From Fragilariopsis cylindrus CCMP1102 (taxonomy: Eukaryota; Bacillariophyta; Bacillariophyceae; Bacillariales; Bacillariaceae): a stretch of 64,000 nt of DNA. The notes beneath the pieces were generated by a model. That model saw only the letters and a list, made by a program, of their open reading frames with translations, did no database searches and was not told the DNA's origin. The translations under genes were made by a program, and so were the position numbers. The DNA lies in assembly GCA_900095095.1 (NCBI GenBank), contig FMBT01000319.1:186001-250000 (forward strand). Direction: 5' to 3'. How positions within the stretch are numbered: the first letter of the stretch is position 1; every line of letters begins with the position of its first letter. Positions 9,789 to 55,700 of the stretch are shown here, one piece after another.

Positions 9789-10766
9789 TCAAAGAGGTAC
9801 TTGCCCAGTCGTTCCATATTTTTCGATATAATCATTTTGTTGTCGAGACAAGGTTTTAAGGATTGGAGAATTGATTTTCGCGAATTCTCCCCAGCCAATT
9901 GAAAGGACAGGTGCCACAATTTCGGCCATGACTTCCATAGCGGGTGGAGATACCTCGACTGGAATAGGTACAGCTGCTGCAACAGCTACAACTGGCGTAG
10001 GAGGAGGTGCTGGAGTGGCAGCAACAACTGGCTCTGGTTCCGCAACTGGTTCTGCTGCTGCTGCTGCTGCTACAGGTGGCGCTTCCGCAACGAAATTAGC
10101 AAAGGCAGCGACATCGTCGGCCTCTTCGACTGTGACCATGATAGGTACACCGCACTCGATGTCATCTCCACTCCCCCCAGGGATCAGAATTTTTGCTGCG
10201 GAAATATAATACAATACAATACAATACAATACAATACAGTACAGTACAAAATAAACGGATGAATGAATGAATCAAGGACGATAACAGATATAGTAAGGAA
10301 TAGCAAGATATAAGTTGTTTGCTCAGGGTATGTACGTAAAGAAAGGAATATGACATCAGGAATATGCTTTATCGTCGGTACGAGTGACGTCGCGAATAAA
10401 GTATATGATGAATACAGTTGCAACGAAATTCTGTCCTCCCATCCCTTGGCCAATTTAATCTCGCCTCGATTTTTGTGTACTGTGTTTTATCAGTAGTAAT
10501 TATTGCAAGTTTAACTTACCAATAAATCCATCGTCTTGTGCTTCGAAATCAATTGAGGCCTTATCGGTTTCAATCTTCGCTAAAGATTGTCCGGCAGAGA
10601 ATTCGGAACCTTCTTCAACAAACCACTCACTCAACACACCAGTTTCCATGGTTGGACTCAACGCTGGCATACCCACAACAATGTGATATGGAAGATCGTC
10701 AGCAGAAGAAACTGAAAAAGATGGAGTAAAGTTACGGCTGGGGGGCATCGGCAGTACAACATACAT
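9789..10766 (-). CDS. Lipoyl-domain protein (PDH E2/E3BP-like), no catalytic domain
   Basis: Two exons are certain: one ending at 10520 (donor GTAAGT) and one at 10195-9789 (acceptor CCGCAG). The join turns FIG|AKILIP into one frame. Together they encode a complete biotinyl/lipoyl domain very like that of pyruvate dehydrogenase E2: MPALSPTMETG near its start, the lipoyl-lysine context ETDKAS, and IPGGSGD. An Ala/Pro-rich hinge follows, then a short tail with WGEFAKINSPILKTLSRQQ ending YGTTGQVPL. The E2 acyltransferase domain (HxxxDG motif) is absent, and no clear E3-binding domain is seen. It could be an E3BP/protein X-like PDH component. The ATG at 10766 is possible, but a CAG acceptor at about 10712 suggests that a separate upstream exon encodes an organelle-targeting peptide. 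An (AATAC)n microsatellite lies in the intron. Confidence 0.75.
10208..10249. repeat. (AATAC)n pentanucleotide microsatellite
   Basis: About eight copies of a five-base unit, degenerating into GTACA copies at the right end. It lies inside the intron of the lipoyl-domain gene, close to the acceptor, which sits just left of it on the minus strand. No coding role. Confidence 0.85.
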
Positions 10767-11511
10767 AGTGAAAGATAAAGTAGGATGAAAATCACAAAGT
10801 ATCCGAAATTGTGGTGGGAATTAATAACTATTTGAGAGAAATAAATACAATTACAGCAGTCGAAATTCCAGATAATCTCTCGTCAAGAATATCTTCATCG
10901 TCCCCACATTCATATTATGTCGTGGAAAGATGGTCCGTCGTTTTTTTTTTTCCTTCTTACATTATTTGTGATGATCTCGCTGTCGCCGGTTTCATAACAA
11001 AGCGAGAACATTTTTTGAGAACAGTAGAAGCTAGCATGATGATTACCTTCTGTGATTGCAAAAAGAGAAGATAAATGTGCAGTAAGTATTCGGTAGGCAC
11101 AAGAAAAAAATGTTGTTCTCGATTTGTAATTCTCTCTCCTATGATTACAAATTACCAATTACCGGTACAACACATTGTACATACAGTAGCAGAATATCAA
11201 ATATCAAATACGTTGTTTACGGTAGCAGAATATTCAAATATTAGTACCGGTAGCAGCGATAAAAGCACTAATTCTGTTCTATTCTAGAATGGTCCTGTAA
11301 ATTTTCAATTTCAAAATCTCACGCATGATCACTTTTTTTTCATTCATTCTTTTCATCAATCATTAAAATCATTTAATATTCAATATATATATTCAATCAA
11401 TCATCAACTACAAAGACAAACATCACGAAAAGCATATCATTAATGTACTTCCTGATTTCTACCATTTTCTCCTAGTTCTTTGTGTTGACTGATGCAACAC
11501 GAAACACAACG
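10767..11511. other. Divergent promoter region, possible hidden first exon
   Basis: Lies between the lipoyl-domain gene (-) and the RF2 gene (+). A minus-strand ATG at about 11011, followed by a GTAAGA donor at about 10962, could be the missing first exon of the lipoyl gene, but its peptide does not look like a targeting sequence. Two inexact GGTAGCAGAATAT(C)AAATA copies lie at about 11187-11245. Otherwise no gene is seen. Confidence 0.35.
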
Positions 11512-14950: not shown

Positions 14951-16807
14951 ATGCCCTCCATTACTAAAGTAGCCGACGTCTTAGATTGGCCAGATGACAA
15001 TGTCGGAAAAGTTACTGTTGAATGTGCCGGTCAAGGCTTCATGGAGTTTTACCGAATATTGAAATCAGCTGGAGATGAAGAAAAGGTCTGGGCTACGCAA
15101 CTGGCTAAAGACGAGGTAGATGTAACGCAAGACGGAGAAGAAAGTAGTAACGATGATGATAAAAATACCTCTGCTTCCACCGTTGACTTGTTCTCTTTGT
15201 CTGAAATAGATTTAAAGGAAATTGACTATTACACGGTCCTTTCTCTCGCGTGCCGACCAACCATCACTCCTGATGATGTCAAAAAGGCCTATCGCAAAGC
15301 TTGTTTGAAGTACCATCCAGATAAGTCCGGTCGAGGGGAGGAAGATGCCGTTTTCCTCAAGGTCAAGACAGCCTTCGAGACATTGACAACCCAGAAAAAA
15401 GCTTACGACTCGACTGAAATGCCTTTTGATGAATCGATTCCATCAGACAAAACGAAATCAACTGTTGATTTCTTTGAATTGTGGGAACCGGTATTCCAAC
15501 GCAATTTACACTTTGACTCTCGACTGTTGGCATCATCGAACAATTCGAAACAAAGCAAAAAAAACAGGCGCAGCGGTGGCTCTTCGCGAAATTTGAAGAA
15601 CAACAAGAATAAACAAGGACCCCCTTCGTTAGGAGATGATTCCACTCCCGTTGAAGAGGTCCACGAATATTACGAGTACTGGATTCATTTTGAAAGTTGG
15701 AGAGACTTCAGTCTACAGGCAGCCCGAGAATTAGAAACGCAGGAGCATTTGGATAATGCTGAATCACGATACGAGAAGCGATGGTTTCAAAAGGAGATTG
15801 ATCGTGCTGCGAAGAAACTCAAGGCACAGGAGGTTTCCCGGATGACACTGCTTGTGGAACGGGCGATGGCGGCCGATCCTCGATTGATTCAAGAAAGAAA
15901 AAGATTGATTGACGAAAAAGGTAGGAAGCAACGGGAGCGGATACAGGAAGCTCTTGATAAGAAGCAGAAAGAGGAGGATGCGATAGTAGCCGAGCAAAAT
16001 CGTGTGGAAGATGAAAAGAAACAAAAGGCGGAAGAAAAGGTGTTGAGAGAAAAAGGAAAGAAGTTGCTCAGAAAGGCTAAGCAAGCATTCAAACGACATG
16101 TCAGCGCTGCACTCGAGAAATTGGAACTGAAGGAATATGCCTTGGAGGATGAAGTAGACTTGATTTGTATTGAGCTGAATCATCTCAAGTTAACGAAGTT
16201 CAACAGCCAGCTCGACTCGAAAGCGGCAACTGAAGTTGTTGCTATTGTGAAGACGAGGGTGAAGAATATTCAAGATGGGGTGGAAGAGGACGACGCAGAG
16301 GATGAACAGCCCGAACCGTCTAGCGTGGCTTCGAATGGATCTGATAGTAAAACGATTGTAAGTAACGGCGAGACTACAAATATATCATCTAGTTCTACCA
16401 CTAAAAAGTTACCTTTTACTAAGGAAGAAATGTCTGCCTTGTCTAAAGGTGTAAAAAAGTTTCCAGCAGGCGGTGGAAATCGATGGGATCAAATTTCCCA
16501 CTACATCAACAATGTTTGTCGACCAGATGATCCAAGGACGAAAGAGGAATGTATTGAGATCTTCAACAAAGTCAATAAAGCTGGAAAGCAACTTCCGAAT
16601 GGTAACACGAGTCATGCTGTAGACGATTCCGATGTATGGAACTCAGAACAAGACCAACAACTACAAAAGGGTCTAACAATGTTCCCATCGAGCATAGAAA
16701 AAAACGAACGTTGGAGCAGTATTTCAGATGAAGTAACGGGAAAGTCAAAGAAGGAATGCGTTGAACGGTTCAAAGCAATCCGAGATGCGTTAAAGGCCAA
16801 GAAATGA
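14951..16807 (+). CDS. ZUO1: Zuotin/DNAJC2 (MPP11) ribosome-associated J-protein
   Basis: A single-exon gene of 618 residues, ATG start. A J domain lies at about 92-153 with the HPD tripeptide at 122-124, needed to stimulate Hsp70 ATPase. The zuotin homology region follows with a long, very charged Lys/Glu/Arg/Gln helix (about 270-400) that in the family contacts the ribosome. Two SANT/Myb-like repeats close the protein (about 486-550 and 561-615; KLPFTKEEM... and DVWNSEQDQQL...). The J-ZUO-SANT-SANT order is that of animal and plant DNAJC2/ZRF1; yeast Zuo1 lacks SANT domains. Expected role: partner of an atypical Hsp70 in the ribosome-associated complex at the tunnel exit, and possibly chromatin binding as reported for ZRF1. 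The gene is intact. Confidence 0.95.
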   Translation: MPSITKVADVLDWPDDNVGKVTVECAGQGFMEFYRILKSAGDEEKVWATQLAKDEVDVTQDGEESSNDDDKNTSASTVDLFSLSEIDLKEIDYYTVLSLACRPTITPDDVKKAYRKACLKYHPDKSGRGEEDAVFLKVKTAFETLTTQKKAYDSTEMPFDESIPSDKTKSTVDFFELWEPVFQRNLHFDSRLLASSNNSKQSKKNRRSGGSSRNLKNNKNKQGPPSLGDDSTPVEEVHEYYEYWIHFESWRDFSLQAARELETQEHLDNAESRYEKRWFQKEIDRAAKKLKAQEVSRMTLLVERAMAADPRLIQERKRLIDEKGRKQRERIQEALDKKQKEEDAIVAEQNRVEDEKKQKAEEKVLREKGKKLLRKAKQAFKRHVSAALEKLELKEYALEDEVDLICIELNHLKLTKFNSQLDSKAATEVVAIVKTRVKNIQDGVEEDDAEDEQPEPSSVASNGSDSKTIVSNGETTNISSSSTTKKLPFTKEEMSALSKGVKKFPAGGGNRWDQISHYINNVCRPDDPRTKEECIEIFNKVNKAGKQLPNGNTSHAVDDSDVWNSEQDQQLQKGLTMFPSSIEKNERWSSISDEVTGKSKKECVERFKAIRDALKAKK

Positions 16808-17314
16808 TGATAAAATAGAAATTATGCAAAATTTTATAACAAGATTGATTGTAGTATATAATCTGTAGTTCACTATCTTCACATATATTTTTAGTGCAAA
16901 TTCTTTTCAAATATTTCCGTATGGAAAGATGACTGACTCGTTCCTTTGTAATACAGTACGAAGATGGTATCTCTATTTCTACTCCAACACTACCTACAGT
17001 TGCTGCAATATTCCGAAAGAAAATGTCATACTACACTAGTAGTTTTTAAAATCACTACCGGGTGCCATGCCCTCCCCCATTCTCATACTCACCCCCAAAT
17101 TTATGATTGATACCTTTTGTCAGCCAACCCATTCACTTATCACATTGAACATAGCTCTATTCAATATTGAATATCATCACACTTCAAACATCATCGTCCG
17201 ATCAATGAAATCAAAAATCGATCAATGAAGTATCTCATTTTTTTCAATCAACACCCCGCCAAATGAAAGTTGAAAGACAATCAATGTGGTAATCAGATCA
17301 ATCCTTCCACAACA
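16808..17314. other. Tandem intergenic region
   Basis: About 500 bp between two plus-strand genes. The left half should be the zuotin 3' UTR. The right half is AT-rich, with two copies of a GATCAATGAA(A/G) word around 17200-17230, and should be the promoter of the fusion gene. No gene or RNA is recognisable. Confidence 0.4.
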
Positions 17315-20300
17315 ATGCAAGTTATGTGCCAAGTTACTCAATTGACAACAATTATATTCGGTGTCGTCGCCTTTCTGCTGCCTTCATTCACCACACCGAC
17401 CCACATCATCATCATCATCATCATCATCATCAAGGGCGAGTATTCCTAGTAGCTCTCGGTTGGTCTTACTGGATGTCGACAACACCGTCTATCAAGAATG
17501 TCATGCTGGTATTGAATCTCAGATCGTTCGTGGAACGCATTCATACTGTAAAGATATTTTGGGGATGGAAAAAGAGATGGCGGATGATCTATATACCCAG
17601 TTTGGATCCACAATTGAGGGTATACGGCAAACCATGTGGAAGGGCTTATCAAACGACAAACTTCAGGAGAATCTAAGGGAGTTCTATCATGCAGTGTACG
17701 ATAATGTTGATCCTTCCATATTGTTATCTGATACGAGTGGTGGGAGTAGCAGTAGCAGCAGCAGCCAGCAGTACGGGATACTCACATGCTTCCAACGAAG
17801 AAATCAAACTAGCACGTCAACTTTTAAAGTCGAGTCCCATACCCCTTGCCTTGGCATCCAACTCTCCATCTTGGCATGTCGGCAAGGTTCTAAGAGCATT
17901 GGGATTAGCAACAGTACTTAGGAAATCTGAAATATTTACCCCCGACCGACTAGCATCGTACCCTACTAAGCATCAGCCCAAAGATTTTTTTTCTACCGTA
18001 ACCGACGACGACGATGGGGGAAATCATCTTAGCAAATATAATTCCATCAGCTTTCTCGACGACTCTAGTCATAATTTAAGAAGTGTACAAGATTATTTCC
18101 CTGGTGTTCTAGACAGGATCCATCATATCAACCGTAGATTAGAAAAAGATGACGATGATGACGACGACAACAACCTCAGCAATGATCATAACGGCGAGAA
18201 AAATCTCGTCCAAGCTCTGCTCCAAGACTTTGGAATGATTGATCCTAATTTTCACTTCTCTCAAACTCAATATCTTGAATCCAAAAACAATGTCGATCGT
18301 CGATCTATACATGCTGATACTTGGAACAAAGTTGTGAAAGAATTGAAAGTACGTGCAGCAAGTGAAGGCGATCATTACAATGGGAATAATCGAGGAGATT
18401 CTTCAATAGTGAGTAATACTTTATCGTCACTTTGGATTGTTGATCTTGGAGCTGGTCTCTTGTCGATATTAGATCTACTTCTTCATGGAGATGACAAGCA
18501 TGGATTAATGGCACTCATTTCAACGACTGATTCTACGAATAATTCATCATCATCTTCCCAAAAATATTTAGAAGTAAAAACAATTCACTACACGGCATAT
18601 GAGTCAAATCAAGAACTATACATATCGTGTCATACGCGTTTACTTTCTTGGGGCTTCAATGAGATTGCGGTAAAGGTATCAAATGATGATGATGGTGAGC
18701 CAGAAATTGCAGACTATTACAAGGATCAGAAAGGGGTCCGAATTCGGGTAAAACTGATTCTCCGAAACTTTGCAGATACAGATGACGATACAATTATCAT
18801 GCCCGAAATACCAGAAAGTGTTACACCCGATTTGATTGTAGGATGTTGTTTCGCTGACTTAATAGATCCCGAAAAATTGGTTCCAGACTTGATACGCTCA
18901 TTTGGTCTGCTTAATACATCCATATCTGATTCTTCCCTGAAAGGAACATTAATTTACTTCCCTATTACCTTTACTGGGACCACTCAGTTTCTTCCACCAC
19001 AGCCCTTTGAATGTCAAACTGGAGGGAGCATCAACGAGAACACAATACCATCCGATACCATGGCTTTTAGATCCTATTCCAGGGCGCTTGAATCAGTCCT
19101 TTATCACAACCTAGATCCTTATCGTCTGCAAGATGTTATGGAAGACTATGGTTATCATTTGGTAGGTTTTGGTTCTTCGGATTGGAAAATTGACCCAGAG
19201 CATGATTCCTATTTGTACGAGACAATGCTATATTTTTTCGGGAGTACTGGAGGGCCTCAGCTTTTGAAAGAAGGTTGGGACGCAGCAGGATGGATCGAAC
19301 GGGCCCGCAACAAGCGTCCTGCCATACAAGTGTCGAATCAAGACTTGCTCTTTCAAATGGTACCGATGACAGGACTAGGGGAGCTTAAGGAGAATCTCAA
19401 TGATGAAAATAACAACCAAATGGTATCAAAAAAACATTCTAGAGAAATTTTGTTTACTGAGCCATATAAAGTGACAACGAAACAGAAAGATCTCTCGTCT
19501 AAATTGGGACCACGGCAAGTTCTCAGTAAGTTTATTTTCATCAATGGAATTCAAAAAAAGATCGAATCGAAGTTTCTTTAGATATGCCAGAAATTGCTAA
19601 CTTTATTTCTACCCTATCCGCTTAGTTCGTGCATCTTACTCATTAATAAGTTCAGGAACTGAATTAAAGATTTTTAAGGGGAAGTTTGACGATGACGCGG
19701 CCCTTGATATCAACATCAAGAATATGGAAGACGAACGCATGTCCTACCCTTTGTCGTATGGCTACTGCCTTGTGGGAGTTGTTGTTGACTGTGGAAGTGA
19801 GGTTTTACGTGAGAAGTATATGGGTAAAACAGTTTTTACATTTTCTCCACACGCCACTCATATCATTACAGACGTTGATGCAACACAAATAGTACCCGAT
19901 GGAATTAACGCTCAAGACGCAATCTTCATGCCATCTATAGAAACGGCTCTGTCAATAGTTCACGACGCTAATGTAAGAGTAGGAGAGAATGTGGCAGTGT
20001 ACGGTCAAGGCTTGATAGGTCTACTCGTCACAGCTCTATTAAGCCGTGGTAAAAGCACTTTCGATCATGATGTTACGAGCGGAAAATTCGATAGTATTAC
20101 GGCCTTTGATATGATTCCTGACCGTCTCGCTGCGGCGTCTAAAATGGGAGCTTCTCAAGCACTCGTTCCAGGTACAGAATCTCAAGGAGGGCCCTTTGAC
20201 GTTTCGATAGAAGTGAGTGGGAATGCCCGAGCTTTACAATCTGCAATTGATAACACCTCGCACGGTGGAAAAATAATAATAGCGAGTTGGTACGGCAACA

Positions 20301-20557
20301 ATGATGTCTCGCTTAAACTGGGTATCGAATTTCACCGAAGCCATAAAACAATTCAAACATCACAGGTTAGCGAGATCCCGGCAAGCATGTCGCGATTGTG
20401 GAGCAAGGAAAGAAGATTTGCCTTTACCTGGGAATTAGTGAAGCAGATACGACCTTCTAGACTATTGAGCAAGATTCTAACTCTAGAACATGCCCAAGAA
20501 GCATACGAAGCGTTGGATAATGGGACTGAGATTGCTATTGCATTTGACTATTCATAA
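17315..20557 (+). CDS. HAD phosphatase - SAM methyltransferase - medium-chain dehydrogenase fusion (two frameshifts)
   Basis: ATG at 17315 opens a signal-peptide-like N-terminus (VTQLTTIIFGVVAFLLPSF). The frame then changes in an (ATC)n tract at about 17404-17431 and again at one extra C in an (AGC)n tract at 17755-17768. A 100-nt GTAAGT...TAG intron lies at 19526-19625. Corrected length is about 1046 residues. Domain 1 is a pyrimidine-nucleotidase-like HAD: nucleophile DVDNT, motif II ALASNS, Lys in PTKHQPK, acidic pair FLDDS. Domain 2 is a class I methyltransferase: VDLGAG, acidic residue in YTAYESN. Domain 3 is a medium-chain dehydrogenase related to the BchC-type branch: SLISSGTEL, Rossmann GQGLIG, IIIASWYG, then KTIQTSQVSEIP. 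The catalytic-zinc Cys and structural-zinc Cys cluster are not visible. Substrate unknown; three linked activities on one small molecule is my inference. Confidence 0.8.
17404..17431. repeat. (ATC)n microsatellite at a frame change
   Basis: About nine ATC units. Upstream of it the signal-peptide frame is open; downstream of it the HAD frame is open, offset by one base. The tract reads as Ile, Ser or His runs depending on frame, so length errors here are easily hidden. Confidence 0.8.
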
Positions 20558-20820
20558 TACACACATAGTATACTTCATGATTTCAATTTCTTAGATCTTG
20601 ATAATTTCCCCAAGAACTGATAATCTTTTTTTGTGTAGTTGTAAGAAGAATCTAGTAGAGGAGAATGATACCTCATCAGTCTCATAATGTAAGGTCCGTA
20701 CAAAACAATATCGAGAAATTGACAACTTGATTCAACTTACGCGCCACTATACGGCTGGATGATCGACAAGTAGTGTATGACACTAGTTACATTATTATCT
20801 CGTGCCAATCTAATTTCATA
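20558..20820. other. Convergent intergenic region
   Basis: A 263-bp gap between the 3' ends of the fusion gene (+) and the ubiquitin protease (-). No gene is recognisable. Confidence 0.4.
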
Positions 20821-23800
20821 TTAGATAAGTACTCGCCGTTGATAAAAAAGAATGTAGGCCGCAGATGACGGAATTTCATTAGAAGGAATGGGACTCACAA
20901 TCGAGTCGTCATAGACATTCCATTTGCCATAATCATTATAATCGTCATCATTTTCCATGGCAAATGCCGTATAATGACCAAATCCCATTCGACCGTAGTG
21001 GTTGACGACTGCAAATAAATCATAATCAGCTGGTATGTTGTTGTCAACAAATCCATTATTGCCTTCGTCGGACTTCCGACCAGCACAGTGGGGATCCATG
21101 TTCAATCCTGTCAGTGGAAATCGACAAAGGTACCAGTTTGTCTCGCCGGAGAGCGTGTTTAAATTCAAAACGCTTGAGATGGACAACCAGGATGTTAGGC
21201 AACTTCCACAATTTCATGGTTTTCAATGCTTGAACATGTTCGCTGCATTTGGAGCAGTACCACATATTGTTTACATCAAGGCGCTCTGGCTTGGAGAAAG
21301 ATTGAAAGCATTGGTGTAATGTGACTCCCTCCTTTGTACTTGAAGATTTCTTTTGCTGACGTATGGATTCGATAAAGCTTGGGTGATCATCACATTCAAG
21401 AAATCTATTGGGGTTGATTACTATTCCCTCTTTCTTGTTGCATACAGTCGGAGATGTCCAAACAAGATTTAAGAACAAGAAACTTTCGGCATAGTCTTCA
21501 CCCAAAACATCTGACAGCAGTATCTTGGATTTTTTTGGAATAACTGAAGTTTTTCGGTCGTCCTCTTCTGTCTGAAAGACATGTCGCGGCCGACCTTTAG
21601 GGTCCACAACGTGGATAGTCAAGGCTTCTTCTAGTCTACAATGGTGCGCGGCGTCATCACAAGCTCCCTCTACCCCCTCTATTTCGACCACTCCTGTCCC
21701 ATCCTCGGTTCCTTCTACCATTCGTCGCACATTATTCCATATTAATTGCCATATATCATGACAATTACCGTTATTGGCGTCCATTGAGGTCATAAAGGGC
21801 AACCCAATTGGTATTCGCTTAAGACTATCGCCGTTTTCAATACTGCCGTCATTCATAGTCGCATCATTGCTCGTACTGTTACCTCCTTCATTCGCACTGT
21901 TGCTGCTACTTATTCTCATCTGCAGGGATTGCGAGACGATGATGTGTACAGTATTTGTTACCGTATACGGTGTCACTTCGTAAGCAACAATGAAATCTTC
22001 ATTGGGTCGAATGATCGATATATGTTTGTTGTCTTCCAGTAGTTTATGAATACTATTCTCATAAACATCAGTCAAAACAAGTTTCGTCACGGGAATTTGT
22101 GCCAATTTGGAAACAGCTAGTTTCAGTTCCGAAATGGTAGATTGGTTTCGAAGATTTATTCCATATCGAACAGGCTTTCGTGTACCATCATAAAAATGGA
22201 CCAAGACAGGAATAGTCACCATAGACCAGGCAAGATTGTTAGTAGGAATTTCCAATGAAACATGATTAAAGGTATCAAAGGACATGGATACTCGATTACA
22301 TCGTGGACAGACACAAGTCGATTGAAATTGTCCATAGAAAGTGTCCAACACAAGTGAATCGTTTCGCCGTTTATGGGCATCCCAGGCCCTGGCTGCAGCT
22401 ATGGCCATGTTTTGCCCATCCGTCACATCAGGCATTTCAACATATGGAGCTCGGCGAATACGATTTAGATCCTCATGGAGACCATCTAAAAGATAAGCTA
22501 AAAATTCTTGAGCATCATGTTGATGACAACCTGCGAAGCGTGGTGCAAAAAGGACGATTGAACGTTTCAATGCAACAGGTGATATTGACTTATTCATCCC
22601 CGATTTCATCCAAACATCTTTAAGGAATACTTCATACGCCGAAGCCAGTTTTCCACCTGTCCCGAGTGGATTAGAAGTGTTCAGATCCGATTTGAATCGG
22701 TTGGAAAGAAAATATCGCGTCAGGGGTGTGCATTTCTGAAGTGACTGTAAAGCTGAATTCATAAAGCACGTATTGCCCAAATTATTAAGTCCAACGCGAC
22801 CATTGGAATCTGGTGGAAGGGATATGTGCAACACCGATTGCTCAGTATTCCCTTCAGCTGTTAATTTCACTCGCTGAGATTTACAATGAGTCCTGTGAAA
22901 AAACCAATGAGATTCTTGACAATTCTTATCGCAATATTGAACCGACATACATTGACTACATCTTGAACTTGCTCCCGGTGCTCGGCATGCATTGCAACGA
23001 GACGACTCTCCTCCAGGCAGTTGTACAGTGGTGCTATTATGATGAATATCTTTTCCATTTGACGTAGGAGGGGGGTAAAGGAATATGTTATAATCTTTTG
23101 TAACTCGCCGACACAAACTAGGAGATCTCTCTCCATACCATGACCTTAACGCGTTATATACTTCTCGCGGCAAGATTTCATAATGATACCCCCGAATAAG
23201 ATTTGTTTTTAGGGATACAACATCTATATTACTATCAACAGGAATTGGTTGAAACCATTGATTGGGAAAAGCATTATTGGATGTTACCAAGAGATCAGTA
23301 TTATCGATTTCCCCCGGAGATTCTACTATGATGTCGTCATCATCATCATCACTATCATCATCATCTGTCATGTCATCGTAACGATCTTTACGATAATTTA
23401 GGGAAACAGTAGCATCCGGTGGTAAATAGTCCAATACACGTTGTGTGCGCTCTGATGAATGTATGTTACTTGCAGAAACAGAACTGGCAGTAGTAGTATC
23501 ATTTCTAGTATAAAAGAAATCAACATATCGACACCACTTTACCCACCAGTTCCATTCCAATAGGTACATTGCCTCTCCCGTTAATGCTTTATGTTGTTGC
23601 TGTGACAGATTTTGTTGACGCGCAAGTAGCAGTCGTAGAACGCTCTGTTTTTGTTGTGATTTCGATGCAGTAGCGAAATGTAGTTGTTGTTGTTGTTGTT
23701 GTGGCTGCGAAAGTCCATTGAAATTGTTTATGCTGTGATCCACTTGCGGTTCTTGTTGGGGTATAGTAGTGTGAACTGGATATGAATTTGTGTGTGTGTT

Positions 23801-24810: not shown

Positions 24811-25477
24811 TATTGTGCCAGTCCTGTCTTGTCTTTTGTTTGCTTTTTTTAATTAGATTGAATGAATCCAATCTAGCTCAACAAGCAGCAGATGATCGGT
24901 GTGGTATGTTCGAGCTTTTCCTCTCAACAGGAAAATGTTGGTGTCCTAGCGATGTTGGTTATCACCTATGATAGCAATGATGGCAGCTGTTGATTCTGAT
25001 AGATAGATAGCTATGACAAAATGAAGATTGATAATGCATGTCGAAACGAATAACTAGAGACAATAGACTTTTAAAAAACTAAATAAATTGAAAATGAATG
25101 AATCGAATCACGCATCAAATCACGCATCAAATCACGCATCAAATCACGCATCAAATCACGAATCAAATCACGCATCAAATCACGCATCAAATCACGCATC
25201 AAATCACGCATCAAATCAACGCACAACAAGAATAAAAATTGGGCGGGCGTGGCGCGCTAAATTTCGGAGTGTTTCTCAGTGCAAAATTAAAATTATTGAT
25301 AAAACGGGAAAGAAGCAATCCAATGCTTCATGAAACAAACAGAGAAACACAACACAACAGCAGCTAAAGTTCACATAAAAAATACTTGCATCGGCATATC
25401 AACAGGATTGTTAATAACGTAGATCCTAGCAAGTTTTTCCTCATCGCCGGTTGTTATCTTCATTTCATTTCTTTATA
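24811..25477. other. Bidirectional promoter region with a minisatellite
   Basis: Shared upstream region of the ubiquitin protease (-) and the SNF2 gene (+). The only distinct structure is the 12-bp minisatellite at 25106-25219. The frame running through it (25094-25333) is a by-product of the repeat and not a credible gene. Confidence 0.5.
25106..25219 (+). repeat. 12-bp minisatellite, about 9.5 copies
   Basis: Unit AATCACGCATCA repeated head to tail with almost no divergence; the fifth copy has CGAATC for CGCATC. It lies 260-370 bp upstream of the SNF2 start codon, in the 5' region shared with the divergently transcribed ubiquitin protease. Near-identity of units indicates recent expansion or ongoing homogenisation. 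Confidence 0.9.
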
Positions 25478-36645: not shown

Positions 36646-39600
36646 TTAATCATTATCTACCTGGCGTTTCTCGTACAAAGTCCTCCAGTGAGCTGCTTCC
36701 GTACACATCTTGACGTTTTTGTTTCGCTCGATTTCAAGAAGTTCTTTAACACGCCTTAGTTCATCTTCCATTGATTTCTTCTCGGTAGCTTGTGTCCCTT
36801 TTTCCGTTTCTCCAATCTGCTTCATACGCTCAATTTCTAATGCATGCGAAGTTTTCGTTGAAATCTCACCTGCGAGCTGACTGCATAATTGAACCATTTC
36901 TGCATCACCGTCATCGTTTCTAATTATATGACGAACTTTATCGATTTCTAGGAAGATTTGATTGCGCATCCTTTCAATCTTGTCATCGGGTTTGCCGAAG
37001 AAGGTTGCAATATTTGGATTCTGCAAATTTTCCTGCAGTTGCACTCGAGCAATTCCTTGCCTGAGTGTTGCGTCAACTTCCAGTCTTTCGTTTTTCTTTC
37101 GCTCCAGTTGAAGTGAATGGGTATGCATTACACTCGTACTTAAAAGCTGGGCATGCGCCTCATCGCGTTCAGTCATTACTTTTGCCAGCGCTTCGTGCAT
37201 CGATTTATGGATACGATCAGTCAGCGAAGGTGGATGTAAGGGCTCGTAAAATATCGGTTGGGTTTGGAAGGAATGGGGAACCTCTGCGTTCGTTACTTCG
37301 CCGGTTTGGATTCCTTCGATGGCAAATCGTCGAAGTTCTGCTTCGCACGCCGAAAGTAGATTCATAATAGCCCCAGGACGTTTCGATAAGGTCGATTTTT
37401 TCTCTTTTTTGGGTGTCACGTCCTTCTTATGCTCATTTTCAATACCCTCTTGTACCCCTCCATAACACGAGCCATCTAATCTAGTAGGCTTCACGTCTCC
37501 TAACGAATCATCGATACCAAGAGCATCGGATAGTAATGCGAGAGCATCAATGGGAAGAGGACAGAGGATCAGGCTGTTGAAAAAACTCTCGATACATTCA
37601 CATTGATAAAGCCGAAGACCTTCAATCCAATCCGAAGATTCTTTATAATCGAGAAGGCCTCCTAATAACCGCCCGCAAACAATCATTTTCTCAGATAAAT
37701 CTAAACTAGACGGCCTTTTTAGAGATGATATAGATGCTTCTTTCCAAACACTGGAATCTTTACCAACAAGCTGCGGCAAAACAGGTTCTAATTCTTCTGA
37801 CAGTTCTGAATATAGCTTTAATACGTCCCCTAAGCTCCATTGCTTCTCAACTAGTGATTCGGTTTGTGTAGATCGCGCACGTAAAACCTTAACAAGAAAT
37901 AGGGGTGTATCTTTCCTAGCTTCTGGACGATGGATTTCGTCAGCTTCTTTCACATCATTTGTCTCTTGTTGCGTTGATTTTTCAGAGAATTGTATCTCTC
38001 CTTCGACTTGTTCCTGCGACGCAGAGACATCGTTGTCTTTAATGTAATGCTGTGTTCCAAGGACTTGGTGCGTATTTCTATTTTCTAACATCGTAGATGT
38101 AATGAATGAATCCTCTTCAATCTTTCTGGAAGACGCGATCGGAATTGTTTTTTCTAATTCATTTTCGGTCAAATTATCTGGACCACTACCAGCTTTGGTT
38201 GTGTATGGAGCGCTTCCGTTTTTAGCTGCCAGATCCATACTACAATCTGATGACTCGATTTGAGCATTTGTGGAAGAAATCTCGCTAACCTTCACAAACC
38301 ATTTCCCTGTCAGCATCTTCAGTGGTATTGCTCCCTGATCAAATGCGCTGGGTAAAAGTGCAGTCTCGTGACTGACAAAGATGTTCTTCAGTGTCAACGG
38401 TTCACCACCTCCAAATGCGGAATCATCTAGTGACGCTTCTTGACGCTTTCGGAAACTGAATCGTGAACTGCGTTGATTCTTCTCCTCTTGCTTACCGATA
38501 TCTTCACTCCCGATGCTTGTTTTTAAGGAAATAACAGCCTCTTGGACTTCACCTTTATGAGCAGAAACTTGTGATTGTGATTCGTCAATTGACATAGTGT
38601 CGACTGAATTGGACATTGAAGAATGGGTGGAATTTCGTTCATTTCCACACATACCGCATTTACCACCTTGACTTTGTTTGCTTTCTATTTTGTTAATAAA
38701 GGTGCACGCAGCGCATGTCCAGGGGTAATCTTGGTTATATTCAGTGCTGTTATCATTGAAAGGAGAGGAAACGGGTACACATATAGCCTCTTGCGTATCA
38801 TCACCACGGGTTTGGGATGACCCACTGAGTTTACCTCTTAGACCAGATAGACGCTCCTGCTTTTCGATGTTTTCTTTTGCCTTCGTTCTTGCGTTCTGTA
38901 TTGCTGAACCTAATTTGTTACCAAATTGAAGTCCCGCGTCTAGGCCCTGGTTGGCGAGGTTTTCTTGCAAACTAGATTCAGAAGTATCTGGCAAGATGTA
39001 ATCTCGCTTCCGCCTATTAGAGATTTCATCTCGTTTTTGACGGGCACTTTCAAGGGCAGACCCAAGTCGACTTTTTGTTACCTGTCCAACTCCCGAAAAC
39101 TTTTTCCTGATCTCATCTCTCCTCGACAACGCCGTTGAGTTCGCTAAGGTTAGATCCTGGCTAGATGCACTGTGACTGCTATCGTTTGTTTCTGGACTTT
39201 CATCCTCAACATTTGTTGAGAATCGAAGTGAGTAATCATCTTTGAGTTCTGACGAACGGAGGTAACCAGAAGACTCAGCCTGTCTACTTTCGGATATGTC
39301 TCTACCTATTGATCTTGCAGATTGAAAAGCTGATGCCAATCTATTTCCGATTCTTCTACCTCTTTGATCACCCCCAACAGTGTCATTCACGTTACTAGTT
39401 TCAGTAATCATGGATTCTGACGATGTCCCATCAATCACTTCCTCTAAATTTGACAAAGCTTTCGAGTCACTAAACATCATTATCGTAGAAGAAATTTCTT
39501 TTATCCAGAGTTCAAACTCCTGAGCATTACTTGTTACAAAGTAGCGTGTCAGACCAGAGCTCTCAACAATAGCAAATCCTCTCTTAATATCCTGCTTGCT

Positions 39601-42600
39601 GTTGCCACCGGCGATTTTTTGTATCTTAGCATTGACTAAAGAGACAATATCTGACGGCTTTGGCTAAACGTAACAAAAGAACGAGATAGTTAGTAAATGT
39701 TCCTTCGAAAATTATATACTACGACAGGAACGATTAAAAACTTACACATCCAGGGCGTGAATAAAAAATAAGAAGTTCCTTCCTAAGGATTATCCAACGA
39801 GGCCAAAGAAAGGATTTCTTCACGACTCTCTGCCCTGAGCGGTGCTGCCCTCCCACCCTTATCCACCCAGCAACACGTGATGCCATCAACGACAATGCTC
39901 CGAACCGTTCCCTCTCTTTAACGAACAGACTAATCTTCAGTGATTCCAGCTCATTATCCCTAACTAGTAAACTGTTATGAATACTCTTTTCATAAAGACT
40001 AAACTCCTCGTTTATTTTCTGAAGAATCTTCTGGGTATTCGAGAAACCGGAACAATTTATCTGGTGTGCCGTGTTTACGTTCGATTTCTTCTCCTCCGCG
40101 AAACTTAAGGGTGCATTTGGTGCATTTAATTCAGTCGCAGTGCGATACTTCATGGCTCTCACAACATTAAAAATCTCGGAAAGACATTCTGAAGAAAGTT
40201 TAGCAGCAGACTTTAATTTTGATTGGAAATTTTCGATCAGCCTTATGTCGTCAATCAAAAGCCCTTCATTCATTGAAAGGTTCACCTCTGCACCTGAATA
40301 TGTAAGACTGATTTCAAAAGGATGCACCACCGTTTCTAGTTTGATAACATCTTTTCCTTGTATGGTAGAAAGCAAGCTTTGCCTAGAAATAATGCTTTGG
40401 TAGAAGCCTCCTTTGTTGGTGTTAATCAGCGTTGACCAATCTGTTCCTTTGCAAGCTAATACCTGCTCAATATCACTCGGTGCCGAACCTGGAATGGGAT
40501 AGAATCTAGTTATTATATCTGACCGATTCAAGAGGAAGCTGAGCTTCTTTATTTGTTCATCTTCGTCATTTGCGTCGAATGGTATGGTGATCAAGATATT
40601 CGCAAGCTCACATCGCAGTAGAATAACTTGCAAATCAGATGGAAGGAGCCGTTTGCATATCGATCGAAGCGCACGCTCCAAAATCGGATCACGGAGATTT
40701 GCATTTGCATTTGCATTTGCATCTGTATTAAGTTTAAGAGCATTTAAATCCAGCTGAATTAAATTCTCGTTTCCCAGTAGTTCCCCTCCAACTGAATATA
40801 ACATAGCTCCGATTGTCTTAGGAGGAAATGGATTCGAATCGCTTGGAGTCGTTTGATGCTTCGACCACGTGGGGAGAAGCAAAGCTTCAATGATCAAAAG
40901 AGTTGTGTTTTTTACGGCTTCCACATCGAGATTTATTGTTGAGGGCGCTGTAATGTCAGCTGACATCGACCAAGACTGGGAATTATTTTTATGCTGCCCT
41001 TCCAATCGAAAGGCCAATTGCTGCGATGAACCAGATGGATTCAATCCACAAGGCATACTTTCATTTCCGAAGGAGCACAACTCAACAAGATCCCATTGCC
41101 TAATGGTAGTTTCTCCTTGTCTGGTCGTTTGTGCTGACGGATCTTGCCCATATAATATATGGTGTTTTCCTGTTTCTTTAGCTAGGTCGACAGTTTTCAA
41201 ATTTACATTCTGAACAAAAGACTTTAGAACAGTCCGATGATCTGAGTTTGAGTGAAAGTCAAAATCAATACCAATTTCTAGGTCTCTCATTTCACAGTCA
41301 ACAAGCTTAAGGAGGCCAATACACCGATCGTTGTTTGTTTGATAGTTAGAGCCATTAGATGACGCTAAGCCATCACGTACACGGCTACTGTTAGGGACAT
41401 TTTGCCTCCAGATTCGCAGACGAAAGTCTTTTTGTTGCAAGCAAAATATTATGGCTAGACCACCAGTTTCTCTACTCTGAGATATGTGCTTTCGTACCAA
41501 AAATTTCCGCCCCTGCATATTCTGCTTGATCATAGTCGGTTCTATTACTTTTGGTACCTCTTTCAAGGACGAAGGTCCAGTAGTATCATTCGATTGCGCA
41601 AATTTATCAATCAATGCATCCACAATATCAACAACATTTTTTCTATGATATAAGACTGTACATATTGCTCCAGCCAAGATATCAAAATCGATATTCAGTA
41701 TGAGTTCATGGACCAAAATCGAAACGAATACCGTGATCTTTATCTTATTGCTATTACCCATTGGAGGCTCGCCTTCAAAGCAGAGTATCGTGGTGGAATT
41801 ACTTATAGAGATGAAATTTTGCGCTTCTTCTGCCATACAAAAGGCGATGATGGGAACTATGTTCATTTCGAATCCACGAGTTGTCAATTGCAACCGAAAC
41901 GTTGACACCGCTCCCCCTGCTGCTGATCCTTGCTCACATCTATAGCAGATATCTGACGGGTCGTTTGGGAAATCAATTATTCCTTTTTCTTTATCCCGCC
42001 GTGCATCACCACTAATAGAATTACCAATTCGGCCAGTCAAAAAAGTACGAGGAAGAGCCGAAGATACGACAAAGGTTGTTTCCTTCCACTTCAATACTAT
42101 ATCACACGATCGCAAACTGTCTTGAATCGCAGCTGGTATACGCATTTCTACGTTGCTTAATCGAGCTGTCACGTTAAACAAGTCGGATGATATCATGGAG
42201 TTCTCATCTAGGAAGATTTGTTTCTGCTCTTGAAGGTATTCGTCCAACTGTAATGTCTCAGACGGATGGCGCAACATATCTGGTGATAGGCTATCAGACC
42301 AATCTCCTGTGTTCCATCTCGGATCAAACCCCTTTCCATCCATGTCCAAAACAAATTTAACAACTCTTTGAATAACATCTGTATCGAAAACAAAATCAAT
42401 TCCATCCACTCCTACCTCATGGAGGACCATAAAACTGTTGTGATTTTCGTCATCTTCGGATATCTTCAAGATATCAATTGTCGTTTTAAGACCTAAAGCT
42501 TGGGTAGGGAATAAATGGCGTAGATCAAGGGGATCATCTCGAATACCTCGTCGTTCGAACAAAGGGAAGGACTCGTCGGCACCAATTTCGTGTGGCTTGC

Positions 42601-44156
42601 GAGATGGAAGATGAAGTGAGAGATGATCATCACGCTGCATCCCACCCAATAAAAGTGTCCGCTTTTGATTACTAAACCGTTCTTGTAATGATATGAAAGA
42701 GGTTGAAAGTTGTGCATATATACCATGTTCGCTATTGGATTTCGGCCACATAACTTCGGCTATGCATCCTTTAGCAACGAATTCAATACACCCTTTTTCG
42801 TCATCACCTGGGTAAATACCCCATAAAAAAAGTTCTGTTATCGAACAAGTCAACGAAAGCTTCGATATATAATGAGACCATTGGGCAGTAAAATAACTGG
42901 GCGTCCATTGGTAGATCGAGGTTTCGGTAATTTATTTGTTTTACTATCATGAGTGGAGCTATCTTTGGTCACAGAGGGATCTTCACCTATTGCGATTCCG
43001 TCGTCGCTTTGCCACGAGCATACAGACCCCCATCATTAGTAGAGCGCCATCATTTGTAGAAACGCAATCAAAATCATCAGTAGCTGGATCCTTCCTGTCA
43101 CTGATTGTGCTGTTAACACTTTTATCCCCTCCATCTTCTAACTCAATCGATTCCCCTTGCGGTAGCATTTCAAATTCGGGATCCTTAACCGGTATACCAG
43201 TAGAAGATGGAAGCATTATATCACCTCTGCTCTAGACTTGAGGGATCTTCAAACGATCTGTCCTTTGCAAGACAATACTGCATTCCAATTGCCAAATGTG
43301 TCAATAGACGAATACTTCTGGAATCAATATCGACGTCAACTTTCGGTATCATCACGTCAACTTGCACAGCCAGTATTGCCCCATCTCTAAGTCGACGTTT
43401 AACGGCCATTTGAATTTCCATCTTCATTTTTGCTAGCTCACAAGGTTGCGACTCGGTCGAAGAGTTGTTTTCTGGATCAAAATGCTGCGGCACTAGTCGT
43501 ACCTGACACTCTCCGTAAACCTTTTTATATATATTAATCGAGTCGCGGCGACCCCCATTATGATGCCATACTTCATTAGGATTTCCTTCGTTGCCTTCAG
43601 CATCGACCATGCATATCTTTAAATTCTTGCATTCAACTTGTAATAGAGGCGGAGTCCATGGCCCGGGTCGTCTCGTTTTAAATTTACCCCAGGTTTGAAA
43701 TTCTAATCGGAATGATTTAACATCAATCATCAAGTTGTCGACGATACGATCCACTAGACCATATGCTCCCGTTCGAAATGGTTTTAAACCTTCAGCGATT
43801 TTTCGTATTAGTTCTCCTTCTGTAATCAATTCAATTAGTCGACGCTGATTTCGAGGTAAGAGAGAAAGAGGTTCTTGGATTTTAGCAGATACGATACCAA
43901 TATCAACGATGATCGGAGCTTTGCGCAAATTCGTCCATGATGTGACATGAAAACCGATTCTACTGACATGGATTTCCTCAAGTCGTATATATGGACATAA
44001 TCGAGCGATAGAATCATTTATTACGTCACAATTGAGAGAAACATCACAAATTTCACCCTTTCCATTTAGTAAATTAGCGTTGACTTGCTCCTTTCGAAAG
44101 CCTACAATTATCTTTGCCAATTGCTCTTGGAAGATTCCCAGAACTAACTGCTCCAT
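36646..44156 (-). CDS. Chorein/BLTP3-like bridge lipid-transfer protein with PH and RanBP2 zinc finger (three frameshifts)
   Basis: Two exons, 44156-39746 and 39663-36646, separated by an 82-nt GTAAGT...TAG intron; corrected length is about 2475 residues. The N-terminus (MEQLVLGIFQEQLAKIIVGF, then VNANLLNGKGEICDVSLNCD) is a chorein domain closest to the UHRF1BP1/BLTP3 branch of the VPS13-like bridges. A long beta-rich body with repeating-beta-groove character continues to about residue 1400. A PH domain spans the intron (GWIRVGG ... WPRWIILRKELLIFYSRPGC|PKP ... ELWIKEI). After it come Ser-rich segments with a RanBP2-type zinc finger (WTCAACTF ... CGMC), then a coiled-coil C-terminus. Three single-base frame changes lie at about 43220, 43027-43031 and 42926-42944, within an acidic linker. 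Expected role: channelling lipids between membranes at contact sites, with the PH domain and zinc finger giving targeting. Confidence 0.8.
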
Positions 44157-52798: not shown

Positions 52799-55700
52799 AT
52801 GACATCATATAATAATCTCCTTAATGGAGCGGGAACAGCAATGAGTCGAAGACGACCAAAGAGGCAACGTACTCCGACTACTATTTATTCGGATGACAAA
52901 CCTTCCACATTTACGACGAAAAAGAAAAAGGGGGACAAAAATAATAATGATGATAATGCGCATCATGACAAGAGCAGGAGCGGCGGTAGCAATCATGAAG
53001 ACGACGATGACGACGATGCTGACGATGATGATCTGTCATACTCCAAGCAATCACCGGTCGCCGGTAATAATGGAAATGGAAATGGGAACGGATGGTCATC
53101 GACGGCATTGGAAGAAACTTCCAGTAGTATGCCACCACCAGCGCCAGTAGTAACAACGACGAAACGCGGACCAGGAAGACCGCCGAGAAAGAGGTCTTCT
53201 GGGGGTACAAAACGACTTTTACGACGATGGCAGCAGCAACAGCAGCAGCCAAGACTGTTGTATCAGATTCTTCCGCTAGTTTGATTGCTACTACTAGTAC
53301 ACCGGTGACGTTGGTGACGTCCGAGGACTCCTCGTCAACATATACTACTACCACTACCACTACTTCTATGACAGTCCAAACCACCCAACTAGCAGGAGGC
53401 GGTGCGGTTGTCAAGCGGAAAAGAGGCCGTCCAAAAAAGAACCGATCAAGGGAGTTGTCGGTTATGTCAGACGAAAGTTGTAGTACTAGTACCGATGACC
53501 ACTACCAAAATAATCAGGATTTAAATGGGGATATTAGTGTCGACGTCGACGGTGACGGTGACGACGATGATGAAACTGTTGCGACGGCGACTGATAATGA
53601 TAATAATTGTCCTACTCCTACGAAAAGTCATCCTCGACGACACTCGCATAGTTCTTCGGGGACTTTAACAACGAAAACTAATCACAATAGTCGGTACTCT
53701 AAATCGATATCGCCGTCGTCATTGAAATTGAAGTTAAAATCTAATTCGAAATCAAGTTCAAAATCGATCCATTTACACAAAGATAAAAATCGGAACACTA
53801 CTATTACTTCCTCTCGAAAAAAATCTAGTAGTAATAAAAGTAGTATTCAACGGACGACGACGAAGACGGCAGCAGGATCAGGAAGGAGTGACTCGTGGAC
53901 GTCTCCTCAAGAGGACATTGAAGGGACTTTTATCAATCATTCTGTCACATTGGCGCCGATACTTCCACCCAGTGTTTTACACAATAACGACAATAATAAC
54001 GGCGGTGGTAATTCATCATCTAGTAGTCGTGATTTAAAGTCGAGATATCCTGCCGTCTTTGATAGTGGTGTTCCGAAGGTGTGTTCTGGTATCGCATCTT
54101 TATTTCCTTCCTTGAATCAAACATCGTCTGGGACATCCTCGTTGTCATCTTCTAAACATAACCAATCTCAGCAACCTCAGCTACCGACATGGACTCCTCT
54201 TTACGATCCTCCCGTTTACTTTGAAGATGATTATGACCAAGAAACGGGAAAGTTAGATGTTGGAAATACAAGGCCTGTTACTCGTCACATTACTGCAATT
54301 ACAGTTCGGAAACCAGATCATGATTACTTAGTTCTTGGAGACTCGGTTGGATTTGTTACGATATACAATCTTGCCAAGGACAACATTAATATTCCCATTG
54401 CGCAATTAGAAAGCGTAGCGTGTCAACAACGGGGGAAGATGGAACAAGAACGGCTTCGTGCTGAATTGCGGAAACGGAGAGAAAAAAAGAGAAGTGGCAA
54501 GGGTAACAGCAACGGCAAATCGTCGTCGGTATTTAATAACGGAAAGAATGGAATTGGAGGAAACAATGGTCATTCGATGGGAAGAGCGCTCTTTTCTTCT
54601 AGCGCCGGTACTCGACCGGGTACACCCAATCAATTTTCAGTCACTGGATCACAACAGAGTAGTAGTATTCTAATGGATACGTCGGAAACGACAATTCATG
54701 CTTTGGGGATGATCGAAAATCGAGTTGTTCTCGCAACTAGCGAGGAATTAGAATGTATGGATGTTCCGTCCGGTACTTCATTATGGGTATGTCCACTTTC
54801 TTCCAATCGATTTGTAACCTCATTGGATATGCATCTGCGTACTTTTGATGTATTAGTGAGTTGTTCGAAGACAACAGGTGGAAGTAGTGTCGCAAGTGAT
54901 GATTCTACCGAAGCTGCAGCTGCCCCCATTTCACCTCTCATGTTGCTCCAACACTCTAAAAACAATGTCGAGATTTGCGATGCTAATTCTCCCATGCTGG
55001 TGCGATCACCATCGTGTTCTGCTATTTGGGATATTGGGGCCCAAAACCGACTGCTGTTCATTGCTCTTTCATCTAATCGTCAAGAACTGGAACTTGTTTT
55101 GGTCTCAGGTGGTAGTATTGATAGCTGGAAGGTTGCTTGCAAGACTAAAATCCCCACAAAGGCGGCAACTAGCGTTTCCGCCGTGACGAAGCTGTCGCAG
55201 TCTCCAGGAGGTATATACACACTCGTTGCATCGTCCCGAGGAATCCGACTCTATCAGACGGAATCTCTCCAACTGATACACGTGTACGGGGATCAATTAG
55301 CATTGCATGGACAAGCTGTTATGTGGAAAGATTGCTGGCTAGCGGGGAGCTACTTTTCGGAAACCAATGGTGTTAGGAAGGCGTCTAGGGGATTGCCATC
55401 CCAATGGCTGGAATGCGATGATTGGCTGGGACAATCATCGACGGTGGATAAAAATGCTAATATTAGCAGTAGCAAGGAAGCTGATATAAATAACATGGAT
55501 CAAGAAAAGGCCGACAATTCGTTAGCTGCATCATCATCGACACCGGATCTAGCGCCATATATTATTGGAGTGCCACATACGAAAGGACCGATAGAACTAT
55601 GTGATAGCTTACATGTTTGGAAAGTGGAACACCCGAGTGTGGTTCCTACCTTGAGCATCCCATTGCCACCCAAGGGAAATGGTGCCCTGGGATTGGTAGG

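Follow-up and report, generated by a model that had tools for sequence, protein, structure and literature searches.

A phosphatase–methyltransferase–dehydrogenase fusion gene in the diatom Fragilariopsis cylindrus, probably linked to an orphan GTP-derived pathway of prokaryotes

Introduction

MT-Ox of gadusol biosynthesis, as presented in the passages of PMC4426668 devoted to it, is an enzyme of two domains, a methyltransferase (MTase) followed by an NAD+ oxidoreductase, with no HAD domain, and its gene lies beside EEVS. For PTPS-IV, AGeNNT gives the signature FGPAQ and names PF00925 and PF01872 among the genomic neighbours, the passages concerned naming no product (PMC5445326); elsewhere PTPS-IV is stated, in a passage referring to unpublished data, to serve F420 synthesis (PMC5041015). 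Here we describe a gene of the diatom Fragilariopsis cylindrus CCMP1102 in which a HAD phosphatase, a class I S-adenosylmethionine (SAM) MTase and a zinc-less alcohol dehydrogenase (ADH) are fused. It occupies positions 17315-20557 on the forward strand of a stretch of 64,000 nucleotides, which as a whole is called the window below (contig FMBT01000319.1 of an assembly comprising 67.9 Mb in 818 contigs).

We propose, with a probability of about 0.65, that the three domains act as one trifunctional enzyme in a GTP-derived pyrimidine or pterin pathway not yet characterised, which elsewhere is represented by a prokaryotic gene cluster. The ADH and MTase domains are homologues of neighbouring genes of that cluster, and a PTPS-IV partner is encoded in the same genome; the substrates and the order of the steps we infer.

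A preliminary description, made from the sequence alone, knew of no pathway using such a fusion. Indeed, the open-licence PMC papers that we searched contain no description of the whole cluster, its product or the fusion; the gene set itself, on the other hand, is that of a widespread prokaryotic cluster. Through the fusion, a large orphan cluster of biosynthetic genes is connected with an alga.

The dehydrogenase domain

The ADH domain starts at 19438, its first ~30 residues (19438-19525) being encoded in the same open reading frame (ORF) as the MTase, and continues after an intron to the stop codon TAA (19626-20557), with the motifs GQGLIG at 20003 and QTSQVSEIP at 20354. Aligned over its full length, the part before the intron included, it is 38% identical to the prokaryotic ADH L021 over 341 columns, and its identity to 27 prokaryotic rows of the alignment is 33-41%. 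A profile of the cluster ADHs built without the algal row matches the domain with E = 1.3e-82, and 61 of the 74 near-invariant positions of the cluster ADHs are retained. A quick tree places the algal ADH within the cluster ADHs (the rows L041, L053, L071 and L089, probably translated in a wrong frame, are positioned outside).

At the columns of the catalytic Cys and His, placed by motif, neither residue is present in any of the 28 rows, which have Ser (n = 27) or Asn (n = 1) and Tyr (n = 28). The lack of zinc Cys ligands pointed out in the preliminary description is therefore seen in the alignment as well, with no Cys or His at the ligand positions. Its suggestion of a BchC-like group holds for a zinc-less, BchC-like protein and fails for BchC proper: the algal ADH is near several medium-chain dehydrogenase (MDR) models of NCBIfam, all scoring far below their cut-offs, and BchC (TIGR01202) is the second-best of them, scoring 35.4 bits where the cut-off is 291.25, so that identity with BchC was rejected. 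The same model is the best one for the cluster ADH L021, again below the cut-off (78.4 bits). We assign the domain to the zinc-less, BchC-like MDRs of the cluster ADH family.

The best plasmid matches of the algal ADH are haloarchaeal ADHs (32-37%), while the phage matches are distant (26-36%), and in viral contigs neither the ADH alignment nor the MTase region found a relative. A profile search of genome contigs with the ADH alignment confirmed at least 373 relatives. The fusion gene, together with its copy in the redundant contig C348, is the sole cluster-type ADH found in the algal genome.

The methyltransferase domain

The middle region (18262-19368), with the motif VDLGAG at 18439, was described preliminarily as a methyltransferase, and this reading is upheld. 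A profile comprising prokaryotic cluster MTases only was searched against 1288 ORFs, from the window and 11 further stretches of the same genome; the fusion ORF was the sole match (E = 5.4e-15, 52.8 bits), and 1000 shuffles of the sequence scored at most 3.1 bits. In the alignment, the algal protein has the conserved D, PITF.G and SDW of the cluster MTases; the acidic D at position 114 is replaced by E. We conclude from these comparisons that the region is a class I MTase of the cluster family, likely but not certainly active.

No MTase match to this region was obtained in Pfam, NCBIfam or PHROGs, and phmmer against PDB with the region alone returned chance matches only. A match to GCS2 (0.12) was likewise dismissed as chance. 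A profile built from the algal MTase and eight others retrieves from PDB the citrinin polyketide synthase 5mpt (3.4e-7) and, from about 1e-4, proteins named methyltransferases or Hen1. When the region was compared by tblastn with 72,556 plasmid records, one match was found, an MTase of Haladaptatus (E = 5e-3). It belongs to an operon with the order ADH, 6-carboxytetrahydropterin synthase, GT4, MTase, the ADH of which is 33% identical to the algal one.

The prokaryotic gene cluster

The composition of the cluster was counted within 9 kb around the ADH in 79 loci, namely the best 80 of the at least 373 ADH relatives with one duplicate dropped; the loci were picked by ADH similarity and several of them are short, hence the counts are biased frequencies. 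PTPS was found in 68 loci, GT4 in 62, MTase in 51, RibD_C in 47, CDP-alcohol transferase in 41, GCHII in 28, LPG_TM in 25 and GCHIII in seven; creatininase was found in none of the 79. Restricting the count to the 38 loci that span 18 kb or more gives 37 for PTPS, 35 for GT4 and 34 for MTase. Thus, of the three domains that the preliminary description proposed to look for as neighbouring bacterial genes, the MTase and ADH do neighbour each other (51 of 79 loci), and for the HAD domain phmmer gave no relative there.

The cluster is widespread, occurring in haloarchaea, Chloroflexota, proteobacteria and Streptomyces. In the annotation (e.g., L021, L101, L204, L206) it appears as a 'zinc-binding alcohol dehydrogenase' and a class I MTase beside a '6-carboxytetrahydropterin synthase'; the algal ADH shares the zinc-less motifs of these proteins, and the PTPS-IV partner is present in the same algal genome. 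Annotated plasmid loci with ADH, PTPS and MTase were observed in Halomicrococcus, Natronorubrum, Haloarcula pelagica, Peteryoungia, Thiodictyon and Rhizobium SL42, and in a plasmid of Streptomyces fungicidicus these three genes are accompanied by creatininase and GCHII. For Haloarcula marismortui, the ADH, GT4 and an MTase-like gene are listed, with no PTPS in the table of PLSDB, which is incomplete. There are two exceptions: the Natrarchaeobaculum ADH adjoins GCHIIa without the remaining cluster genes, and the Rhodococcus ADH lies in a different gene setting. Two further ADH regions carried no annotation.

In two alphaproteobacteria we observed a run of ADH, PTPS, MTase and RibD without GT4, with GCHII in one of them. 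The genes are ADH, PTPS, MTase and RibD in Rhodobacteraceae SC52, and GCHII, ADH, PTPS, MTase and RibD in Palleronia, where a gene of the inositol monophosphatase family and a GT4 gene lie ~2-4 kb upstream. Near the reduced cluster lie a gene of the inositol monophosphatase family and a PfkB kinase (L206:4177-4980 and 10003-10893) and a ribokinase (L204:5831-6751), none of which has relatives in the other cluster loci. A cluster-type PTPS and a lower-scoring QueD-like one are both present in 12 of 17 cluster genomes, the rest having one match or being not classed.

The PTPS-IV partner in the algal genome

A PTPS search of the algal genome pointed to three places, two of them scoring equally and probably being copies. 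One protein (L119, contig C182, L119:1797-2327) is of the PTPS-IV type, with an N-terminus, MWIKKCWILVAILLLSLPINATA, that looks signal-like by eye. It contains FGPAG...HGATY, with HGA in place of the usual HGH; among 76 rows, this HGA is otherwise seen only in the cluster PTPS of Peteryoungia and Streptomyces. The tree, built from 57 of the 76 rows (18 cluster PTPS that are second copies were omitted, as was the QueD-type row L150), places L119 in a clade with these same Peteryoungia and Streptomyces proteins, with support 100/99. The sole PDB match of L119 at the 0.01 threshold is SCO6650 (3d7j). Compared with the published PTPS-IV signature, it has FGPAG instead of FGPAQ and carries HGA; this comparison concerns the partner and not the fusion protein itself.

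A tblastn search from L119 retrieved 23 plasmid records, leading back to the same clusters. Adjacency of the ADH was confirmed for 15 of them, nine by annotation and six by coordinates, and six records were left unchecked. The remaining algal PTPS, L118, is placed towards QueD in the tree, on a long branch.

The phosphatase domain and the proposed pathway

The HAD domain consists of an N-terminal half (17433-17744) with motif I, DVDNT, at 17472, and a C-terminal half (17774-18160) with SNS (motif II, in the part beginning at 17845), KHQPKDFF (motif III, 17968) and FLDDS (motif IV, 18049), all placed by eye. Apart from KHQPKDFF, these motifs had been named in the preliminary description, together with VDLGAG and GQGLIG, and every one is found in the sequence. 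The N-terminal half matches the NCBIfam model TIGR01993 (pyrimidine 5'-nucleotidase) with E = 3.2e-6. When the domain is read through the frame break, one four-letter word being allowed, TIGR01993 is the best HAD model (E = 2.2e-10), although its 40.6 bits do not come near the equivalog cut-off (142.9); the read-through domain has no match in Pfam or PDB.

Further steps of the cluster were sought in the algal genome. A search for RibD_C yielded L115 (with copies) and L117. In the RibD tree, L117 is found on a long branch within a clade containing 13 cluster RibDs (97/98), so perhaps the genome holds the RibD-type reductase of the cluster. The query with the cluster GT4 retrieved L120 (profile E = 4.3e-29).

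Taken together, these assignments would be consistent with the following scheme. A GTP cyclohydrolase and a RibD-type reductase would make a ribosyl- or ribitylamino-pyrimidinone 5'-phosphate, from which the HAD domain would strip the phosphate, as its best model is a pyrimidine 5'-nucleotidase; a GTP-derived pyrimidine nucleotide is suggested as the phosphatase substrate by the type of the HAD domain along with the GTP cyclohydrolase and RibD_C of the cluster. The PTPS-IV protein would then reshape the ring or the side chain, the MTase would add a methyl group, and the zinc-less ADH would perform an NAD(P)-dependent oxidation or reduction. The preliminary description had envisaged three sequential steps on one metabolite; this survives in outline, since the MTase and ADH appear to belong to one pathway, and the order itself stays an assumption of the scheme. 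The N-termini of the fusion, the PTPS-IV protein and the RibD_C protein are all signal-like by eye, which suggests a shared compartment, either the secretory route or the plastid.

A bolder version, which we hold tentatively and at somewhat less than even odds, is that a photosynthetic eukaryote runs an orphan prokaryotic GTP-derived pathway in its plastid or secretory route and has fused three of the steps, one of them carried out by a phosphatase that could not be found in the clusters. The compound made would then be a novel pterin or pyrimidine, probably related to membranes or light, which the three domains of life would have in common. The set of proteins predicted to act together comprises a GTP cyclohydrolase, the RibD_C reductase, PTPS-IV, the MTase and the ADH, plus the phosphatase. 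The unsettled function of PTPS-IV would become testable through this set, and the fusion would name the steps that are likely consecutive or co-localised.

Observations at variance with the cluster pathway

Several observations weigh against this assignment. Some concern the domains themselves: the algal MTase retains 14 of 21 near-invariant positions, with two of the three Gly in the SAM loop, the third being replaced by Leu. For the HAD domain, phmmer found no relative among 1432 ORFs of the cluster regions and in a wider six-frame set, and hence a different phosphatase may act in the prokaryotic clusters.

Others concern the partners. Most cluster PTPS found via the ADH carry HSH or HAH rather than HGA, so that two or more types of PTPS exist in the cluster, and the nearest relatives of the algal ADH are not those of the algal PTPS. 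Among the 23 plasmid records matched by L119, two, both from Streptomyces (L202, L205), have no ADH annotated within 8 kb. The PTPS-IV-type genes of these two records lie close to genes for a MEKHLA-domain protein and a cupin, which constitutes a second context.

The cluster-linked RibDs L008, L014, L015 and L185 fall outside the clade of L117. This protein has no match in the plasmids and matches pyrimidinone phosphate reductases in PDB, and may therefore serve in riboflavin synthesis. In the algal genome, GCHII is represented only by a fragment at a contig end (E = 0.0034 to the cluster GCHII profile), and creatininase was not found there; L120, the sole GT4 obtained with the cluster query, is closest to a different type of GT4. 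Neither CDP-alcohol transferase nor LPG_TM was present in the window or the 11 further stretches, to which that search was confined. Finally, the prokaryotic genes are separate and clustered, whereas in the alga the MTase and ADH are fused with an added HAD domain, the cluster-specific GT4 was not found, and the partners are unlinked, the fusion being located on contig C293, L119 on C182 and L117 on C265.

Alternative explanations

The first alternative is that the MTase and ADH are of prokaryotic origin and now serve a different, lineage-specific reaction, for example a nucleotide salvage set by the HAD domain, in which case the shared origin would say little about function. The resemblance of the HAD domain to pyrimidine 5'-nucleotidases and its lack of a cluster relative by phmmer agree with this, as do the divergence of the MTase and the absence of creatininase and the cluster-specific GT4 from the algal genome. 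However, the ADH has kept most of its near-invariant positions (61 of 74), and the genome independently encodes a PTPS-IV protein; we consider this alternative unlikely.

About equally unlikely, and the main rival, is that the protein resembles MT-Ox, an enzyme of gadusol or mycosporine synthesis, with the MTase-ADH part oxidising and methylating 2-epi-5-epi-valiolone (EEV) and the HAD domain being an addition. The order of domains, an MTase followed by an NAD+ oxidoreductase, is the same, and MT-Ox occurs beside EEVS in the stramenopile Aureococcus, according to the relevant parts of PMC4426668. The substrate on which MT-Ox was shown to act is EEV (PMC4426668); as EEV has no phosphate group, a phosphatase would be left with no evident role. 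A sugar phosphate cyclase is indeed encoded in the algal genome, its best PDB matches being 4p53 ('Cyclase', 9.3e-72) and 5tpr (1e-51); the former we take to be the EEVS ValA. Moreover, no cluster-type ADH other than that of the fusion gene and its contig copy could be found for such a role. However, the fusion (C293) is not beside the EEVS-like gene (C265): the 20 kb around the cyclase contain no cluster-type MTase or ADH and, by eye, no other MTase. The visible first exon of the cyclase lacks a signal-like stretch, though there may be an exon before it, and a search of 13,309 ORFs from the cluster loci gave no relative of the cyclase. The MTase of MT-Ox is of the Methyltransf_3 kind; Pfam does not find this domain in the fusion, and nowhere in the genome does a Methyltransf_3 match lie beside an ADH_zinc_N match. 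The cyclase locus (C265, L123:3-1657, also L113) is in its own right a candidate for a gadusol or cyclitol pathway, and an ORF similar to hydroxyisobutyrate dehydrogenase is situated near it.

Gene structure and reading frames

The claim of a three-enzyme fusion stands as regards a single multi-domain gene, and needs a correction as regards the HAD domain, which is split over frames. The ORF 17689-19581 contains in one frame the C-terminal half of the HAD domain, the MTase and the first ~30 residues of the ADH. A canonical intron of 100 bp (19526-19625, GTAAGT...GCTTAG) lies inside the ADH and joins this ORF in phase to the rest of the domain. The residues before the intron, SREILFTEP...GPRQVL, match the N-terminus of prokaryotic ADHs in the alignment, and as the ADH aligns to its prokaryotic counterpart over the full length with this part included, the MTase and ADH constitute one gene. 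The triple HAD-MTase-ADH fusion is real, with the N-terminal half of the HAD domain and the signal-like start being located in other frames.

The first half of the HAD domain, with motif I, lies in the frame of 17361, and the remainder, with motifs II-IV, is shifted by one base, the change occurring at or before an AGC/AGTAGC repeat (17745-17773). The signal-peptide-like N-terminus noted in the preliminary description (MQVMCQVTQLTTIIFGVVAFLLPSFTTPT, 17315-17403) does look signal-like by eye, but its ATG at 17315 is one base out of the HAD frame, the break coinciding with a (CAT)9.7 microsatellite (17404-17432). For the AGC break, 97 GT-AG pairs (16-343 bp) keep the frame open, for instance 17696-17771 (76 bp), and none of the 97 has a GTAAGT donor. 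Therefore, both an intron and an indel error remain as explanations of this break, and the view that no intron could account for it was rejected. Among GT-AG pairs scanned at the 5' (CAT) break, none keeps the frame open.

Both breaks are also present in the near-identical contig C348. Compared with 16285-21284 of the window, C348 has six differences, including one where the alignment ends; the single difference inside the fusion gene is a substitution at 18698. Over ~26 kb the two contigs differ by nine gap openings against three mismatches, which makes it plausible that the frame breaks are indel errors; that the assembly contains such errors is clear. Overall, positions 1-26283 of the window are repeated almost identically in C348, with more indels than substitutions, and the RibD copies L115 and L116 differ by a frame break.

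A decaying pseudogene or an assembly artefact, with real frame breaks and no full protein made, is improbable: it would fit two breaks each seen in two contigs, a HAD frame with no ATG before motif I, a 5' break that no GT-AG intron mends and a diverged MTase, but HAD motifs II-IV, the MTase and the ADH are open over ~2.7 kb with a clean intron, the breaks fall at microsatellites, the AGC one could be an intron, and the redundant contigs differ mostly by indels.

Other features of the window

Of the 21 other ORFs of at least 200 amino acids in the window, 20 were scanned, and none belongs to the pathway (DnaJ/Myb, UCH, SNF2, DEAD helicase, RF-1 and others); thus, no algal gene cluster is visible among the scanned neighbours. 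Three long ORFs, 36646-39480 (944 aa), 39734-42853 (1039 aa) and 53227-58365 (1712 aa), have no Pfam match at 0.001. A near-identical (94%) tandem or overlapping repeat is situated at 25102-25226, just before the SNF2-helicase ORF.

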